The translations under genes were made by a program, and so were the position numbers. The notes under the pieces are model-generated. The model had not been told where the DNA came from and did no database searches. It saw nothing but the letters and a program-made list of their open reading frames with translations. From the NCBI GenBank assembly GCA_019118245.1, contig DWZJ01000053.1:1-60771 (forward strand): a stretch of DNA of 60,771 nucleotides, given 5' to 3'. This DNA is from Candidatus Oscillibacter excrementigallinarum (GTDB lineage: Bacteria > Bacillota > Clostridia > Oscillospirales > Oscillospiraceae). Shown here piece by piece: positions 5,380-57,097 of the stretch (positions are counted from its first letter, which is position 1; every line of letters starts with the position of its first letter).

Positions 5380-5594
5380 TTCTTAAAGAGGGGACTTCGT
5401 CCCCCTTTTAGATTCCCCTTCACCTGTGACATCGGTCACTGGTGAACGCCGCCCAGGGCGGCTGAGTCGGGGAATTTTCGGCAGGCACATGTCCTGCCGA
5501 AAATGATTAGATATTTTTCACGCCGGCGGCGTGAAACTCTGCGAGGCTTTTGCGGGGCACCCCCGCATTCCGATATAAAGGAGTTATAGAAGTT
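5380..5594. repeat. hairpin-chain intergenic region between pheS and pheT
   Basis: 215 bp packed with inverted repeats. First is AGGGGAC/GTCCCCCT (about 5388-5408, a possible weak terminator). Then CACC..TGAC/GTCA..GGTG, GCCGCCC/GGGCGGC, a long stem ATTTTCGGCAGG/CCTGCCGAAAAT (about 5473-5504), TTCACGCC/GGCGTGAA, and GCGGGG/CCCCGC before the pheT ribosome site. No ORF is supportable. The organisation recalls the hairpin chain after pheT, but I could not align the two. Confidence 0.6.
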
Positions 5595-8315
5595 ATGTTA
5601 CTAAGCAGAAAGTGGCTGGACGAGTTCGTGCACGTCGATGCCAATGATAAAGATTTCGCGGAGGCCATGACCCTCTCCGGTTCCAAGGTGGAGACCACCG
5701 AGGACCGGGGGGCCGAGATCTCCAATATCGTGGTGGGCACCATCCTCTCTATGGAGCGCCACCCGGATTCCGACCATATGTGGGTCTGCCAGCTGGATGT
5801 GGGCCAGAACGCTCCCATCCAGATCGTCACCGGTGCCTGGAACATCCACGTGGGCGACGTGGTGCCCGTGGCCCTGGACCACTCCACCCTCCCCGGCGGC
5901 AAGAACATTGAAAAAGGCATGCTCCGGGGCGTGGAGTCCAACGGCATGATGTGCGGGCTCTACGAGCTGGGCCTGGACGAGCGGGATTTCCCCTACGCCG
6001 CCATCGTCCCCGCCGCCATTTTGAACGACTACCACCCCCTGGACAAGGACAAGCCCTCCATCCCCGCGGACATCCAGCCCGGGGACAAGGTGTTCGGGCC
6101 CGTGGTGTGCGCCAGAGTCCTGGAGTGCGCCATCCAGCCGGACTACACCTTCCACACCTGTCTGGACCTGGGCGGCTCCACCGCCGCGCCGGACACCATC
6201 TGCCCCAACCTCCACGAGGGCGACCTGGTGGCCTACAACACCAAGAGCAACATCATCTGCACCCTGGAGGATCTCCATGCCGAGCAGAAGGAGTTTCCCC
6301 ACTGCATCCCCGACGGCATCTTTGTTCTCCATGAGGAGGGCGTGAAGAACGGCGACGACATCAAGCCCATCATCGGCGCCGATGACCATGTGGTGGAGTT
6401 CGAGATCACTCCCAACCGGCCGGACTGCCTCAGCATCATCGGCCTGGCCCGGGAGGTGGCCGCCACCTACCAGCAGCCCCTGTCCCTCCATGAGCCGGAG
6501 GTGAAGGGCGGCGCCGACGGCGTGCTGACGGACCTGCTGGATATCGAGACTCCCGCCGCCGATCTGGTGCCCCGGTACACCGCCCGGATGGTGCGGAACG
6601 TGAAGATCGCCCCCTCCCCCAAGTGGATGCGGGAGCGGCTGCGGAGCATGGGCGTCCGCCCCATCAACAACATCGTGGACATCACCAACTACGTCATGCT
6701 GGAGTACGGCCAGCCCATGCACGCCTTTGACTACCGCTACGTAAAGGGCGGCCACATCATCGTCCGCCGGGCCGAAGAGGGCGAGGAGCTGACCACCCTG
6801 GACGGCAACGTCCGCAAGCTCACCGCCAACCACCTGGTCATCGCCGACGAGCACCGGGCTGTGGGCCTGGCGGGCATCATGGGCGGATTGAACTCCGAGA
6901 TCGTGGCGGACACCACCGACGTGGTGTTCGAGTCCGCCTGCTTCGACGGCACCTGCATCCGCAAGGGCGCTCTGTCGCTGGGGATGCGGACGGAGGCCAG
7001 CGCCAAGTTTGAAAAGGGCCTGGATCCCCTGAACACATTGCCCGCCGTTGACCGGGCCTGCGAGCTGGTGGAGCTGCTGGGCGCCGGAGAGGTGATGGAC
7101 GGCGTCATCGACATCCTGAACCATGTGCCCCAGCCCCGCACCATCCGCATGGACCCGGAGCGGGTCAACGCCCTGCTGGGCACCGACATCCCCGCCGCGG
7201 ACCAGTACCGCTATCTGGCCCGGGTGGACATCCACACCCAGGACGGCACCATTCCCGACGGTCCCGCCGACGTGATCATCCCCTCCTGGAGGGGCGACGT
7301 GGAGGGTGTCGCGGACCTGGCGGAGGAAGTGGCCCGGTTCTACGGCTACAACAACATCCCCACCACCCTGATGCGGGGCCAGACCACCCTGGGCGGCTAC
7401 GGGGCCGAGGAGATCCTGGAGCGCCGGGTGTCCAGCGTGTGCCGCTCCTTTGGCTATGACGAGATCATCACCTACTCCTTCATCTCCCCCACCCAGTACG
7501 ACAAGATCCGCTGGCCGGAGGACTACCAGCGGCGGAACTCCTTCAAGATCCTGAACCCCCTGGGCGAGGACACCTCCATCATGCGGACCACCACCCTGCC
7601 CTCCATGCTGGAGATCCTGACCCGGAACTACAACTACCGCAACCAGGACGTGAAGCTCTATGAAGTGGGCCGGACCTACCTGCCCGGCGGCGAGGACGGC
7701 CTGGCCATCGAGTCCAAGACCCTGACCCTGGGCGCCTACGGCGGCGACATGGACTTCTATGCCATGAAGGGCGTCATTGAGGCGATCCTGAAAGAGCTGC
7801 GGGTCCAGGACGTGACCTTCCGCACCGGCAGCGGCACGCCGGAGGAGGCCTCTTATCACCCCGGCCGCTATGCTGAAATTTGGAGCGGCAGCGACTGCCT
7901 GGGCTGCTTCGGCCAGATCCATCCCCTGGTGGCCCGGAACTACGGTGTGGACGCTGAATTCTACTGCGCGGAGCTGTCCATGGACGAGCTGGAGAACGCC
8001 AAGGGCCAGGATCCTGAGTATGTGCCTCTGCCCAAGTTCCCCGCCGTCACCCGGGACATCGCCGTGGTGTGCGACAAGTCCGTCACCGTGGGAGCCCTGG
8101 AGGACTGCATCCGCCGGGGTGCCAAGGGCCTGCTGAAGGACGTGGCCCTGTTCGACATCTACACCGGTGCCGGCATCCCGGAGGGCAAGAAGAGCGTGGC
8201 ATTCAACCTGACGCTCCGGGCCGATGACCGCAGCCTGACCGCCGAAGAGGCGGACGCGGATGTGAAGAGCATTCTGGAACTGCTGAAGTCCGAGCTGAAC
8301 GCCGTCCTGCGGTAA
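5595..8315 (+). CDS. pheT: phenylalanine--tRNA ligase beta subunit, with a large insertion
   Basis: 906 residues, against about 800 for typical bacterial PheT. The ATG at 5595 follows AAAGGAG (5578-5584) and gives the expected start MLLSRKWLDEF. Domain order: EMAP-type tRNA-binding fold (about 40-130), B3/B4 domain, B5 with GMRTEASAKFEKGLDP, the core, and a C-terminal FDX-ACB anticodon-binding domain (RDIAVVCDKSVTVG). About 100 extra residues sit between GVESNGMMCGLYELGL (about 112-127) and EITPNRPDCLS (about 270-280). The gene ends at TAA 8313-8315 and is followed by a hairpin element and a duplicate of its own 3' end. Confidence 0.95.
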   Translation: MLLSRKWLDEFVHVDANDKDFAEAMTLSGSKVETTEDRGAEISNIVVGTILSMERHPDSDHMWVCQLDVGQNAPIQIVTGAWNIHVGDVVPVALDHSTLPGGKNIEKGMLRGVESNGMMCGLYELGLDERDFPYAAIVPAAILNDYHPLDKDKPSIPADIQPGDKVFGPVVCARVLECAIQPDYTFHTCLDLGGSTAAPDTICPNLHEGDLVAYNTKSNIICTLEDLHAEQKEFPHCIPDGIFVLHEEGVKNGDDIKPIIGADDHVVEFEITPNRPDCLSIIGLAREVAATYQQPLSLHEPEVKGGADGVLTDLLDIETPAADLVPRYTARMVRNVKIAPSPKWMRERLRSMGVRPINNIVDITNYVMLEYGQPMHAFDYRYVKGGHIIVRRAEEGEELTTLDGNVRKLTANHLVIADEHRAVGLAGIMGGLNSEIVADTTDVVFESACFDGTCIRKGALSLGMRTEASAKFEKGLDPLNTLPAVDRACELVELLGAGEVMDGVIDILNHVPQPRTIRMDPERVNALLGTDIPAADQYRYLARVDIHTQDGTIPDGPADVIIPSWRGDVEGVADLAEEVARFYGYNNIPTTLMRGQTTLGGYGAEEILERRVSSVCRSFGYDEIITYSFISPTQYDKIRWPEDYQRRNSFKILNPLGEDTSIMRTTTLPSMLEILTRNYNYRNQDVKLYEVGRTYLPGGEDGLAIESKTLTLGAYGGDMDFYAMKGVIEAILKELRVQDVTFRTGSGTPEEASYHPGRYAEIWSGSDCLGCFGQIHPLVARNYGVDAEFYCAELSMDELENAKGQDPEYVPLPKFPAVTRDIAVVCDKSVTVGALEDCIRRGAKGLLKDVALFDIYTGAGIPEGKKSVAFNLTLRADDRSLTAEEADADVKSILELLKSELNAVLR

Positions 8316-8460
8316 ACGGCCGCCTCTGTCCCGCAGAGCGGGACCGCGCGGGCGCGCGTCCAAGCGTTTTGGCCTCGCCAAAACCTTGGGCCGGGCGGAT
8401 CTACTCCGCCCGGCTCATATGGGATCGGGTCCCCGCAAAAGCGCCGCTTTTGCGGGACGG
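8316..8460 (+). repeat. 145-bp five-hairpin element (copy 1), inserted after the pheT stop codon
   Basis: Noncoding and made almost wholly of stems in this order. H1: GTCCCGC aga GCGGGAC (8328-8344). H2: a CGCGCG repeat (about 8345-8358). H3: CCAAGCGTTTTGGC ctc GCCAAAACCTTGG (8360-8389). H4: GCCGGGCGGA/TCCGCCCGGC (8390-8414). H5: CCCGCAAAAGC gcc GCTTTTGCGGG (8432-8456). The same order and a nearly identical H3 occur in the element after uppP. It is followed at once by a copy of the pheT 3' end. Confidence 0.8.
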
Positions 8461-8525
8461 CGGACGCCGATGTGAAGAGCATTCTGGAACTGCTGAGGTC
8501 CGAGCTGAACGCCGTCCTGCGGTGA
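8461..8525 (+). pseudogene. duplicated 3' end of pheT
   Basis: Bases 8461-8523 match 8251-8313 at 61 of 63 positions, offset by exactly 210. It encodes a C-terminal tail like that of pheT, with one Lys-to-Arg change, ending in TGA instead of TAA. There is no start codon or ribosome site, so it is not expected to be translated alone. The likely native terminator follows this copy. Confidence 0.9.
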
Positions 8526-15602: not shown

Positions 15603-15894
15603 CAATATCTCCGGTAAAACTTGATATCGCAAAGACGATGAAGAGAAGAGTACCCAGGCAGATACAGTGCAGAGAGCCTCGTGTGGTGAAAAGAGGTCTG
15701 GAAGGGCTTGGAGAACATGGTCTCGGAGTTGCGTGGCCGACCGCCTTGGGCATAGGTCACGACGTGTGCGCACGTCACAGCGCAGGAGTGTGCTGGCACT
15801 CCTCAAGGCCGCTTTCGTGAGGAAGCGTGCGAAGCAAGGTGGTACCACGGCGGATCACGTCGTCCTTGAGACTTTCGTCTCAAGGGCTTTTTTG
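15603..15894 (+). promoter_or_regulatory. T-box riboswitch, tRNA-Met specific (specifier AUG)
   Basis: The T-box core AAGGTGGTACCACGG is at 15836-15850. The terminator CCTTGAGAC tttc GTCTCAAGG is followed by six T, ending at 15893. In stem I the K-turn GATGA pairs with GAG, and helix GAGA/UCUC closes a specifier loop with 5' side AGAGTA and 3' side AGAAC-ATG-G, which is the canonical form. The specifier ATG is at 15717-15719. This fits the methionine importer genes downstream: low charged tRNA-Met should turn them on. Confidence 0.93.
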
Positions 15895-50006: not shown

Positions 50007-50459
50007 TCACTCCCCCATCACCTGGAACACGATGTCCCGCACTCGGTCTCTCGTGTCGCATTCGATGAGGGTCAGGTTCTGCCAGGGGCCCACGGTGATC
50101 TTGCCGTTCACAAAGGGCACCGTGATGAAGGGGGACAGCAGAGCCGCCTTGATGTGGGAGGAGCCGTTGTCATCGTGCCAGGTCTCGTGGTGCCAGTAGG
50201 GCACCACCCTTCCCTTCTCATCCAGATAGGGGGAGAATACATCCAGAGCCGCCTTCAGGTCGTGGTTCACGATGCCCGGCTCGAACTCCAGGGTGGTCAG
50301 GCCCGCCACGCCGCCGGTGGTGAAGCCGGTGATGGTGCCAGCGGAGATGTTCTTCTGACGGCATGCCTCCGTCACCGCGTGCTGGAAGTCCTCCGTCACA
50401 TCGATCATGCCCATGTTGGCCTTGGTGTGATATGTCTTTTTTTCGGTATAAACCGCCAT
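50007..50459 (-). CDS. YjbQ family protein (UPF0047, secondary thiamine-phosphate synthase-like)
   Basis: 150 residues, full length for the family. Conserved parts are GTITGFTTGGVAGLTTLE, WHDDNGSSHIKAALL and GKITVGPWQNLTLIECD; the His in WHHETWHDDNGSSH and NHDLK form the likely metal/active site. E. coli YjbQ shows weak thiamine-phosphate synthase activity; the real role is unknown. The ATG at 50459 follows AAGGAGG. It diverges from the nitrilase-type gene. Confidence 0.93.
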   Translation of the reverse strand: MAVYTEKKTYHTKANMGMIDVTEDFQHAVTEACRQKNISAGTITGFTTGGVAGLTTLEFEPGIVNHDLKAALDVFSPYLDEKGRVVPYWHHETWHDDNGSSHIKAALLSPFITVPFVNGKITVGPWQNLTLIECDTRDRVRDIVFQVMGE

Positions 50460-55867: not shown

Positions 55868-55934
55868 GCTTCTCTCCTTCGAGATCCGTCTCCTCTGTAA
55901 TTTCTCTCACTGGGCCCCGCACACCTGCGGCAGG

Positions 55935-56009
55935 TTATCCCAGCACCAGCGTCAGCGCCAGCACAATCAGACCCGCCGCCCAGCAGTAATAGGCGAACCA
56001 GCCGAACTT
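55935..56009 (-). pseudogene. duplicated 3' end of uppP
   Basis: Matches 56155-56229 at 72 of 75 positions, offset by exactly 220. It encodes the same last 24 residues (KFGWFAYYCWAAGLIVLALT...LG) and the same TAA, without a start codon or ribosome site. It lies downstream of the hairpin element, just as the pheT duplicate does. Confidence 0.9.
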
Positions 56010-56154
56010 CTCCCTGCAAAATCTCCGATTTTGCAGGGGCCCCGTGATCTTACCTGAGCGGCCAGGCGGAGCCCGCCCGCTCCAAGGTTTGGCTGCGCCA
56101 AACGCTTGTGACGCCGCTTTCGCGGCGGGCGCGCTCTGCGCGCCCAAAGGCAAG
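56010..56154 (-). repeat. 145-bp five-hairpin element (copy 2), inserted after the uppP stop codon
   Basis: In gene direction: GGGCGCGC aga GCGCGCCC (56145-56127), CGCCGC gaaa GCGGCG (56127-56112), CAAGCGTTTGGC gca GCCAAACCTTGG (56108-56082), a GAGCG..GGCGG/CCGCC..CGCTC stem (56082-56056), and CCCTGCAAAATC gga GATTTTGCAGGG (56038-56012). The order, orientation relative to the gene and total length (145 bp) match the element after pheT. The third stem is almost identical in sequence. Confidence 0.8.
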
Positions 56155-56994
56155 TTATCCCAGCACCAGTGTCAGCGCCAGCACGATCAGTCCCGCCGCC
56201 CAGCAGTAATAGGCGAACCAGCCGAACTTGCCTTTGTCGGCGATCATCTTCAGCAGGCGGATGCAGGCGTAGCCCACCACGGCGGCCACCGCCACACCCA
56301 CCAGGTACACCGGGATGTCCGAGACGATGATGGTATTCTCCTGGATGGCATCGATCATCGTCAGGAGGTTGGCCCCCAGAATGGCTGGGATGGACATCAG
56401 GAAGGAGAAGCGCACCGCGAACTTCCGGTCAAAGCCCACAAAACAGCCAGCGGTGATGGTGGTGCCGGAGCGGGAGATGCCGGGGCAGGTGGCGATGGCC
56501 TGAGCCACGCCCACTAGCAGCACATCCACCAGGGTGGCGTTCTTCTCCGTCTTGCGGCCCTTTTTCACCCGGTCGCTGGCGAACAGCAGAAAGCCCGTCA
56601 CGATCAGGGCCCCCGCCACGAAGTAGATGTTGCCGGACAGGGCCTCCACCAGGTCCTTTACCGGCAGCACAGCAAACAGAGGCAGTGTGGCCACGATGAT
56701 CAGCAGGATCAGCCGCCGGGCCGGGGGAATTGGATTGGGTGTGGTGCCGTGGGCCAGATCCCGGATCCCGTCGATCAGCTCCACGACCATCTCCCGGATG
56801 TCCTGCCAATAGGCCACAAACACCGCCACCAGGGTGCCCAGGTGCAGCAGTACGTCAAAGAAGTCCGGCGTCGCCGGGATGCCGGCCTGCCCCAAGAAAT
56901 GCTCCGCAATGGCCAGATGGCCGGAGCTGGAGATAGGCAGGAACTCCGCCAGGCCCTGAATCAGGCCCAGCAGGATGGATGACAGCAAAGACAA
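56155..56994 (-). CDS. uppP: undecaprenyl-diphosphatase
   Basis: About 279 residues with about eight helices. It has the BacA motifs LIQGLAEFLPISSSGHLAIAE (in parts) and GISRSGTTITAGCFVGFDRK. It removes a phosphate from undecaprenyl diphosphate so the lipid carrier can be reused in peptidoglycan synthesis, and its overproduction gives bacitracin tolerance. TTG start at 56994 has GGAGG about 10 bases before; TTG 57003 abuts that site. Its 3' end is duplicated downstream. Confidence 0.93.
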   Translation of the reverse strand: MSLLSSILLGLIQGLAEFLPISSSGHLAIAEHFLGQAGIPATPDFFDVLLHLGTLVAVFVAYWQDIREMVVELIDGIRDLAHGTTPNPIPPARRLILLIIVATLPLFAVLPVKDLVEALSGNIYFVAGALIVTGFLLFASDRVKKGRKTEKNATLVDVLLVGVAQAIATCPGISRSGTTITAGCFVGFDRKFAVRFSFLMSIPAILGANLLTMIDAIQENTIIVSDIPVYLVGVAVAAVVGYACIRLLKMIADKGKFGWFAYYCWAAGLIVLALTLVLG

Positions 56995-57097
56995 TGGATT
57001 CAATCCTCCAGTCGTTCAAAATCGGACATACATGATTGAGTATATCACGGCCAGGCGGAAAATTCCAGTCATATTTCCGGGAAAGGCGCAGAAGGGG

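Follow-up and report, generated by a model that had tools for sequence, protein, structure and literature searches.

Why should a bacterial gene be followed by a second copy of its own end, with a chain of hairpins between the two? The window, by which we mean the whole 60,771-nucleotide stretch of contig DWZJ01000053.1 of Candidatus Oscillibacter excrementigallinarum, poses this question twice, once at uppP and once at pheT. The original prediction was that both genes carry members of one family of hairpin-chain elements inserted at 3' ends, and its description of the uppP locus holds: a downstream copy of the gene's last 75 nt matches at 72 of the 75 positions, within a full repeat of 81 bp (77/81), and the 145 nt in question fold as a hairpin chain (z = -6.6 against 200 shuffles). 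The sister element at pheT has the same layout, with 65-bp repeats identical at 63 of 65 positions and 145 bp between them, and the third stem, said to be nearly the same in both elements, is indeed so and forms the conserved core of the family. The features are as follows, T1 and T2 being the two copies of the gene end and x' a guide-like stretch that precedes the hairpins.

56155..57003, minus strand: uppP (bacA), the gene with the duplicated 3' end (Pfam BacA, 8.5e-79; open reading frame).
56149..56229, minus strand: T1 of uppP, the terminal copy attached to the gene body, including the stop codon (direct repeat, 77/81).
Between 56230 and 56229, minus strand: uppP insertion point (direct repeat).
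56145..56156, minus strand: x' of uppP, AACTTGCCTTTG (12/12 complementary; covaries with the target in other species).
56127..56145, minus strand: uppP hairpin 1 (fold).
56113..56126, minus strand: uppP hairpin 2 (fold).
56083..56108, minus strand: uppP hairpin 3, conserved core CAAGCGTTT..AAACCTTG (covariation, 86 sequences).
56057..56081, minus strand: uppP hairpin 4 (fold and covariation).
56012..56038, minus strand: uppP hairpin 5, terminal, its end 2 nt from T2 (covariation).
55929..56009, minus strand: T2 of uppP, the second 3'-end copy (direct repeat).
5550..8315, plus strand: pheT, start codon not settled (Pfam tRNA_synthFbeta, B3_4, FDX-ACB).
8249..8313, plus strand: T1 of the pheT unit (63/65 repeat).
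8317..8327, plus strand: x' of the pheT unit, CGGCCGCCTCT (pairs with AGA|GGCGGACG, one mismatch).
8314..8458, plus strand: 145 bp separating the two pheT tails, made up of x' and the hairpin body (repeat bounds).
8459..8523, plus strand: T2 of the pheT unit (63/65 repeat).

The x' of uppP, AACTTGCCTTTG, is the reverse complement of CAAAGGC|AAGTT (56225-56236), which spans the insertion point, and the three differences between T1 and T2 inside the coding part of this gene all fall at codon position 3. The two uppP repeats (56149-56229 and 55929-56009) are separated by 139 bp, or by 145 counting from the stop codon; the folded segment comprised the 139 bp and the 6 nt before them. The equal 145-bp lengths of the two elements, once taken as meaningful, are a coincidence, and the expectation of a fixed length near that value was wrong, as the stretch between the repeats has a mean of 150 and a standard deviation of 19 across 65 units.

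The uppP and pheT elements belong to one hairpin-chain family. Each unit was used to search the DNA of the genome's own assembly (G000; 2.4 Mb, 108 contigs), and further relatives came up. A covariance model built from ten elements of this genome returned 35 matches in it at E<=1 and 20 at E<=1e-5, the ten model sources counted among them, and matches at E<=0.01 were found in 40 of 61 genomes of the same genus, with 0 to 40 per genome and some of them forming tandem arrays of whole units. Searching GTDB species genomes for the exact core pattern gave at least 117 stretches; among the 80 loci listed are isolates of Flavonifractor plautii, Pseudoflavonifractor capillosus and Oscillibacter valericigenes, all three Oscillospiraceae, and the family is also present on two IMG/VR viral contigs. 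Units were seen in the complete genome AP018533 and in the one-contig genome G037 as well as in isolates, which makes an assembly artefact unlikely. In the aligned hairpin bodies (86 sequences), 26 of the 31 pairs show two-sided change, compared with 15.9 +- 1.2 in shuffles (0/500 as high) and at most 16 in slid structures, in an alignment that was fitted to the covariance model and hence leans to the model's structure. The stems covary strongly, and in place of two isolated copies without covariation there are many copies with it. Copy number, covariance-model hits and covariation rule out chance hairpins or a lone duplication, and the many copies, the covarying stems and the empty sites together are strong support for a genuine family of elements associated with gene ends.

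No Rfam family reached the gathering score in the element stretches scanned, which were those of the window and of eight further loci; the latter gave five weak matches, all under that score. The sole Rfam hit in the window at the gathering threshold is a T-box leader at 15629-15870 (95 bits), and ARAGORN places one tRNA-like gene, type undetermined, with anticodon cgaa at 50250-50339. A search of open-licence PMC papers on guide-bearing, gene-end or Oscillospiraceae repeats found no description of such an element among the papers listed. It looks like a guide-directed kind of tiny mobile element that was previously undescribed.

The order within a unit is T1, x' and hairpins, followed by T2. 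We examined 84 elements, of which 65 have an accepted flanking repeat, 6 were set aside as tandem or mis-anchored, and 13 lack an accepted repeat. The 80 listed core-pattern loci and the two viral contigs yielded 92 matches, 69 of them with at least one repeat of score >=18, and 45 of those matches were added to give a set of 110 units. In the 65 units T is 32-119 bp long, and its length trades off against the stretch between the repeats (r = -0.58), so that the sum of the two is tighter (sd 17) than if they were independent (26); the inserted unit of T1, x' and hairpins is mostly about 165-250 bp. When the allowed repeat distance was widened to 4 kb to look for larger, gene-carrying versions, the one case at 753 bp (L324) contained tRNA-like sequence and no obvious enzyme by eye.

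T usually extends to the stop codon. In the analysis of gene ends and x' extent, which took in 102 of the 110 units, 78 of the 85 sense loci have a T that passes the stop codon or ends within 12 nt of it. Measured from the last base of the stop codon, the insertion point is at a median distance of 56 nt and never closer than 34 nt. At a nusA-like gene (L352) T is 138 bp, enough to span to the gene end from a more distant site. The same genes are hit in different species, including infB, lepA, secA, uppP and a response regulator, and 25 site families are present in more than one genome; gene names other than uppP and pheT (lepA, prfC, infB, secA and so on) are those we presume from the peptides encoded. 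The predicted 3'-end linkage needs widening. It holds for gene termini in general, since lepA and prfC have units at the gene start, antisense to the gene, whose T includes the start codon; next to the one at lepA the sequence holds a ribosome-binding-like motif. At the junctions of 80 distinct sites, the gene side has G at -3 (0.60) and at -2 (0.74), and GGG(A) is the usual end of the element; only GG stands out, and a short target motif alone was rejected as the basis of site choice.

The new feature here is x', a reverse complement of the element's own site that is carried inside the element and differs between sites; the original prediction had neither this, nor the coding ancestry of both tails, nor the units at gene starts. 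It comprises about 10-19 nt preceding the hairpins and complements the target across the insertion point, from about -7 to +12. Its complementarity score is 10 or more in 34 of 65 units, far above the 1.8% seen when x' was paired with other sites (4090 pairings), and coverage peaks at the insertion point; in 20 of the 65 it is below 8, a value that 11% of controls reach, and the site families of L028, L055-057 and L068 have a poor x' throughout. By a stricter score x' is strong in 64 of 110 units. On the gene side its extent piles up at 5-7 nt and drops thereafter, and on the far side it reaches up to 12 nt with few beyond. Two cases have a perfect x' of 7+12 nt, L032 in the own genome and L432 on a viral contig, where the unit follows a gene that we take to resemble the terminase large subunit. 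Between species x' tracks its target, so that ggc|AAGTTC occurs with GAACTTGCC and ggga|AAATTCGG with CCGGATTTTCCC. The empty uppP sites compared are without x', except in G045, where x' is kept and a matching body is absent; this site (L128) may be a decayed unit. Three further sites that are empty by tail copy (L255, L281, L295) likewise have an x' after T, and the x'-bearing sites at the lepA start of G023 and G037 (L281, L295) are partly like a second element type, B, described below.

Were these elements inserted? At infB, the relative G045 matches F1 at 60/60, has a single T and continues into the own genome's downstream flank at 39/40, the own site being 222 bp longer; pheT is empty in G056 (F1 58/60, downstream flank 28/40). 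For every one of the fourteen sites compared, the tail-copy test calls at least one relative empty, a call that is wrong for L127, L280, L294 and L308, and occupancy is patchy between close relatives. Insertion is supported by clean empty sites, but ordinary intragenomic transposition is not, because hairpin bodies group with their site and not with their genome. The nearest relative of a hairpin body is at the same site in another genome in 79 of 98 cases and at another site in the same genome in 2 of 98, and bodies are on average 0.80 identical within a site, 0.716 within a genome and 0.712 when they share neither; a few elements are present twice in this set (L066/L157, L096/L164), and same-site pairs within a genome were excluded as neighbours. 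Among 14 genomes at infB (G037 left out as a degenerate copy, the G069 distance set by hand), body and gene distances are correlated (Mantel r 0.41, p 0.005). T1 correlates with T2 at r 0.50, with the body at 0.07 and with the gene at 0.15, so that the notion of a T1 that travels with the body has no support at this site and the pattern fits partly vertical descent.

The two tail copies offer a further view of descent. In the 100 of 110 units whose frame is settled, 233 of 297 T1/T2 differences fall at codon position 3, with 229 synonymous, 68 not and one nonsense, in a count that under-represents frameshifted copies since T was defined by ungapped similarity. The share at position 3 is 195/240 in sense units and 38/57 in the 18 antisense units, the latter figure, taken alone, not exceeding what is expected of a half-constrained pair. 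One serine codon at the lepA start alternates between AGC and TCG. Both tail copies at gene 3' ends are thus of coding ancestry, unlike a decaying duplicate, and T2 may either derive from exchange with related functional alleles or be functional part of the time. Within genomes T1 and T2 differ by a mean of 0.052 (infB) and 0.035 (uppP). For T1 compared between occupied genomes, the difference ranges over 0.155-0.217 in the infB bins and over 0.089-0.255 in the uppP bins. Where T1 and T2 of the window's genome differ (59 positions), the relative G045 agrees with that T1 at 35 and with that T2 at 20, frequently as a mosaic; four further relatives take no clear side (T1/T2 matches 22/19, 23/26, 27/23 and 21/18), which weakens the idea that T1 is always foreign and T2 native. 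A divergence step was observed at the insertion point; because empty genomes show it too, it mostly reflects variability of gene ends. A hypermutated T was largely dropped, as occupied pairs exceed the others only at gene divergence <0.06 (ratio 3.4, n=6, vs 1.8, n=5).

Our best reading, held tentatively, is that the window elements are non-autonomous, site-locked homing mini-elements in which x' acts as a cis guide that recognizes the target, following a logic like that of IS608. The unit of T1, x' and hairpins would enter a conserved coding site tens of bases from the gene end; T1 would supply the remainder of the gene, which would therefore survive, and the old terminus would stay behind as T2. 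The x' would pair with the target strand over the insertion point, with about 7 nt on the gene side and up to 12 nt beyond, and this pairing would tie each element lineage to its own gene. Recognition and strand transfer would take place on folded single-stranded DNA, at the GG-type motif common to both junctions, with the strand-transfer enzyme supplied in trans, and later recombination between T1 and T2 would delete or multiply units. A bolder version, possible though doubtful, would make these a novel class of mobile DNA. On first entering a site, a minimal homing element would acquire its guide by copying the 19-nt complement of the target (-7 to +12) into itself, and it would then spread at that site between strains, species and phages while protecting the host gene by the end it carries.

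Against this best reading, no enzyme that we searched for follows the element, including the Y1 transposase that IS608 logic needs. The mixed matches of relatives to T1 and T2, the partly vertical pattern at infB, the units with a poor x', the lower share of position-3 differences in antisense units and the mixed G.U and A.C counts also speak against it. The original prediction had looked to a transposase, RAYT or reverse transcriptase with the distribution of the element. We compared 17 high-copy genomes (at least 13 covariance-model matches) with 21 zero-copy genomes among the 61 of the same genus. Reverse transcriptase (RVT_1) is found in 6/17 and 7/21, and was not found in the own genome; Y1/RAYT (PF01797) occurs in 7/17 vs 5/21, does not follow copy number and was not found in, among others, G000, G008, G013, G045, G048, G056 and G059. 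TnpB (3/17 vs 12/21) does not track copy number, RRXRR of the IscB type is present in 1/17 vs 1/21, and the IS110 DEDD transposase occurs in 9/17 and 7/21 and was not found in G007, G023, G048 or G059. None of the five fits strictly as a partner; eight of the element-rich genomes are at least 95% complete, and incomplete genomes can hide genes.

The main rival, on balance rather unlikely, is RNA-guided homing, in which x' and the hairpins would be transcribed as a 5' guide and a 3' scaffold, a nuclease would cut the empty allele at the insertion point, and repair would copy the unit from the occupied one. IscB guide RNAs have a 5' guide followed by a structured scaffold, and the elements share this layout with OMEGA (IscB/TnpB) systems; body clusters locked to sites suit this account as well, and so does the coding ancestry of the tails, which exchange with a related allele would leave. 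However, these nuclease families were not found in most high-copy genomes (RRXRR in 1/17, TnpB in 3/17), no Rfam family reached its gathering score in the element stretches scanned and HEARO RNA was not matched there, and an occupied allele still has the target at F1|T1, so it would be unprotected from the nuclease. The stems bear on the same point. G.U pairs are usually tolerated in RNA stems, and in the fitted alignment the main stem holds 2 G.U and 2 A.C among 1032 cells; such near-absence suits DNA. Outside the main stem G.U is commoner than A.C, as RNA would have it: hairpin 5 has 63 G.U vs 9 A.C, with 51 of the G.U in a single column, and hairpin 4, which is badly aligned, has 89 vs 38. 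Refolding gave 62 G.U and 3 A.C for hairpin 5 and 11 G.U, 3 A.C and 39 other for hairpin 3, and the mismatches in x' pairing are 11 G.U, 4 A.C and 31 other. The best-aligned stem gives a slight lean to DNA rather than RNA as the putative folded substrate.

Alternatively, the element might not move at all. It could be a functional structured element kept in place by selection, its tails arising from tandem duplication and unequal crossing-over and its x' kept for pairing with the gene end of the transcript. The partly vertical pattern at infB, the tandem arrays of whole units, the similarity of T1 and T2 within genomes and the covariation of x' with its own target are what this would lead one to expect. 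We consider it unlikely, since occupancy is patchy among close relatives, some units lie antisense at gene starts, the family occurs on two viral contigs, and the centring of x' on the joint is left unexplained. It is highly improbable that this is an ordinary transposon family whose target-site duplications happen to be unusually long: direct repeats of 32-119 bp do flank 65 of 84 elements (138 bp in L352) and empty sites exist, but a free copy should decay evenly, and we rejected this account on codon positions (78% of differences at position 3, 233/297, with one nonsense); in addition T ends near gene ends, bodies cluster by site, and no transposase among the families searched goes with it. 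Least probable of all is reverse splicing or target-primed retrohoming of an intron-like RNA, for although x' spans the joint, as the internal guide sequence of a group I intron, to which it would be akin, spans both exons, and the T2 "exon" stays coding, RVT_1 was not found in 11/17 high-copy genomes (the own genome included), the Rfam scans made gave no intron family, and self-splicing does not require gene-end sites or antisense gene-start units.

Where does the homing mini-element reading stand among known systems? IS608 picks its target by base pairing, and engineered extended pairing directs it to sites of 12-17 nt (PMC5934647). IS608 and our elements are small DNAs with hairpins whose in-element guide pairs with the target, and the elements here look like a natural counterpart of the extended-pairing form. 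In IS200/IS605 elements a similar short motif stands at both junctions, as the short GG-type motif does here. Unlike IS608, whose native target is a tetranucleotide, our elements have an x' of about 10-19 nt that differs per site, carry a gene terminus and are without tnpA (Y1_Tnp in 7/17 high-copy genomes, not found in the own genome); they are not members of IS608, because its defining transposase does not follow them.

Other comparisons are looser. REP/REPIN sequences are described as short palindromic non-autonomous repeats with many copies (PMC8266576). Our elements resemble them in being short, palindromic, non-autonomous and multi-copy, but REPs go with TnpAREP (RAYT), to which we find no link, and the bodies here cluster by site. 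To our knowledge, REPs have neither a target-matching guide nor a gene-end copy. Some integrative elements restore the 3' end of their target gene, and these likewise insert in a gene end and keep the gene whole by a carried terminus; ours differ in measuring about 200 bp rather than kilobases, in having no integrase, in occupying many unrelated genes and in holding a complement of the site. In group I introns, a guide near the 5' end of the element pairs across the joined exons, and x' pairs across the joint in the same manner; in contrast, the elements gave no group I match in the Rfam scans, show no intron-like core, are restricted to gene ends and include antisense cases.

If x' does direct insertion, nature would have evolved a guide-specified means of DNA insertion that is very small and leaves the conserved genes it enters unbroken. 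It would be of interest for tools of site-directed insertion and would add a further form of homing to those known from introns, inteins and endonuclease genes. A covarying element in many housekeeping genes, with a matching complement for each joint, needs explaining even if it does not move.

Related repeats surround the family. The second element type, B, was seen at L022 (own genome, contig C41, about 1426-1564), L014 and L293 (G058), and shares only the GGGGTCCCC-hairpin-GGGGA part with type A, followed by AAAGGAG. The type-B element at L022 also has tail copies and an x', and at the lepA start of G058 types B and A stand in tandem, each with an x' for the same site. In the own genome the end sequence of type B also occurs as long inverted repeats that enclose 0.7-0.9 kb of repeated DNA with no obvious gene (L044, 1430-2314; L048, 874-1703). 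On one IMG/VR contig (L431), two core elements directly precede two viral genes, presumably portal-like and capsid-like, and hairpin 5 runs into AAAGGAG, a possible ribosome-binding site. Finally, the sequence after the infB T2 at L025 (query 569-751) recurs widely in the own and related genomes and constitutes another dispersed repeat family.
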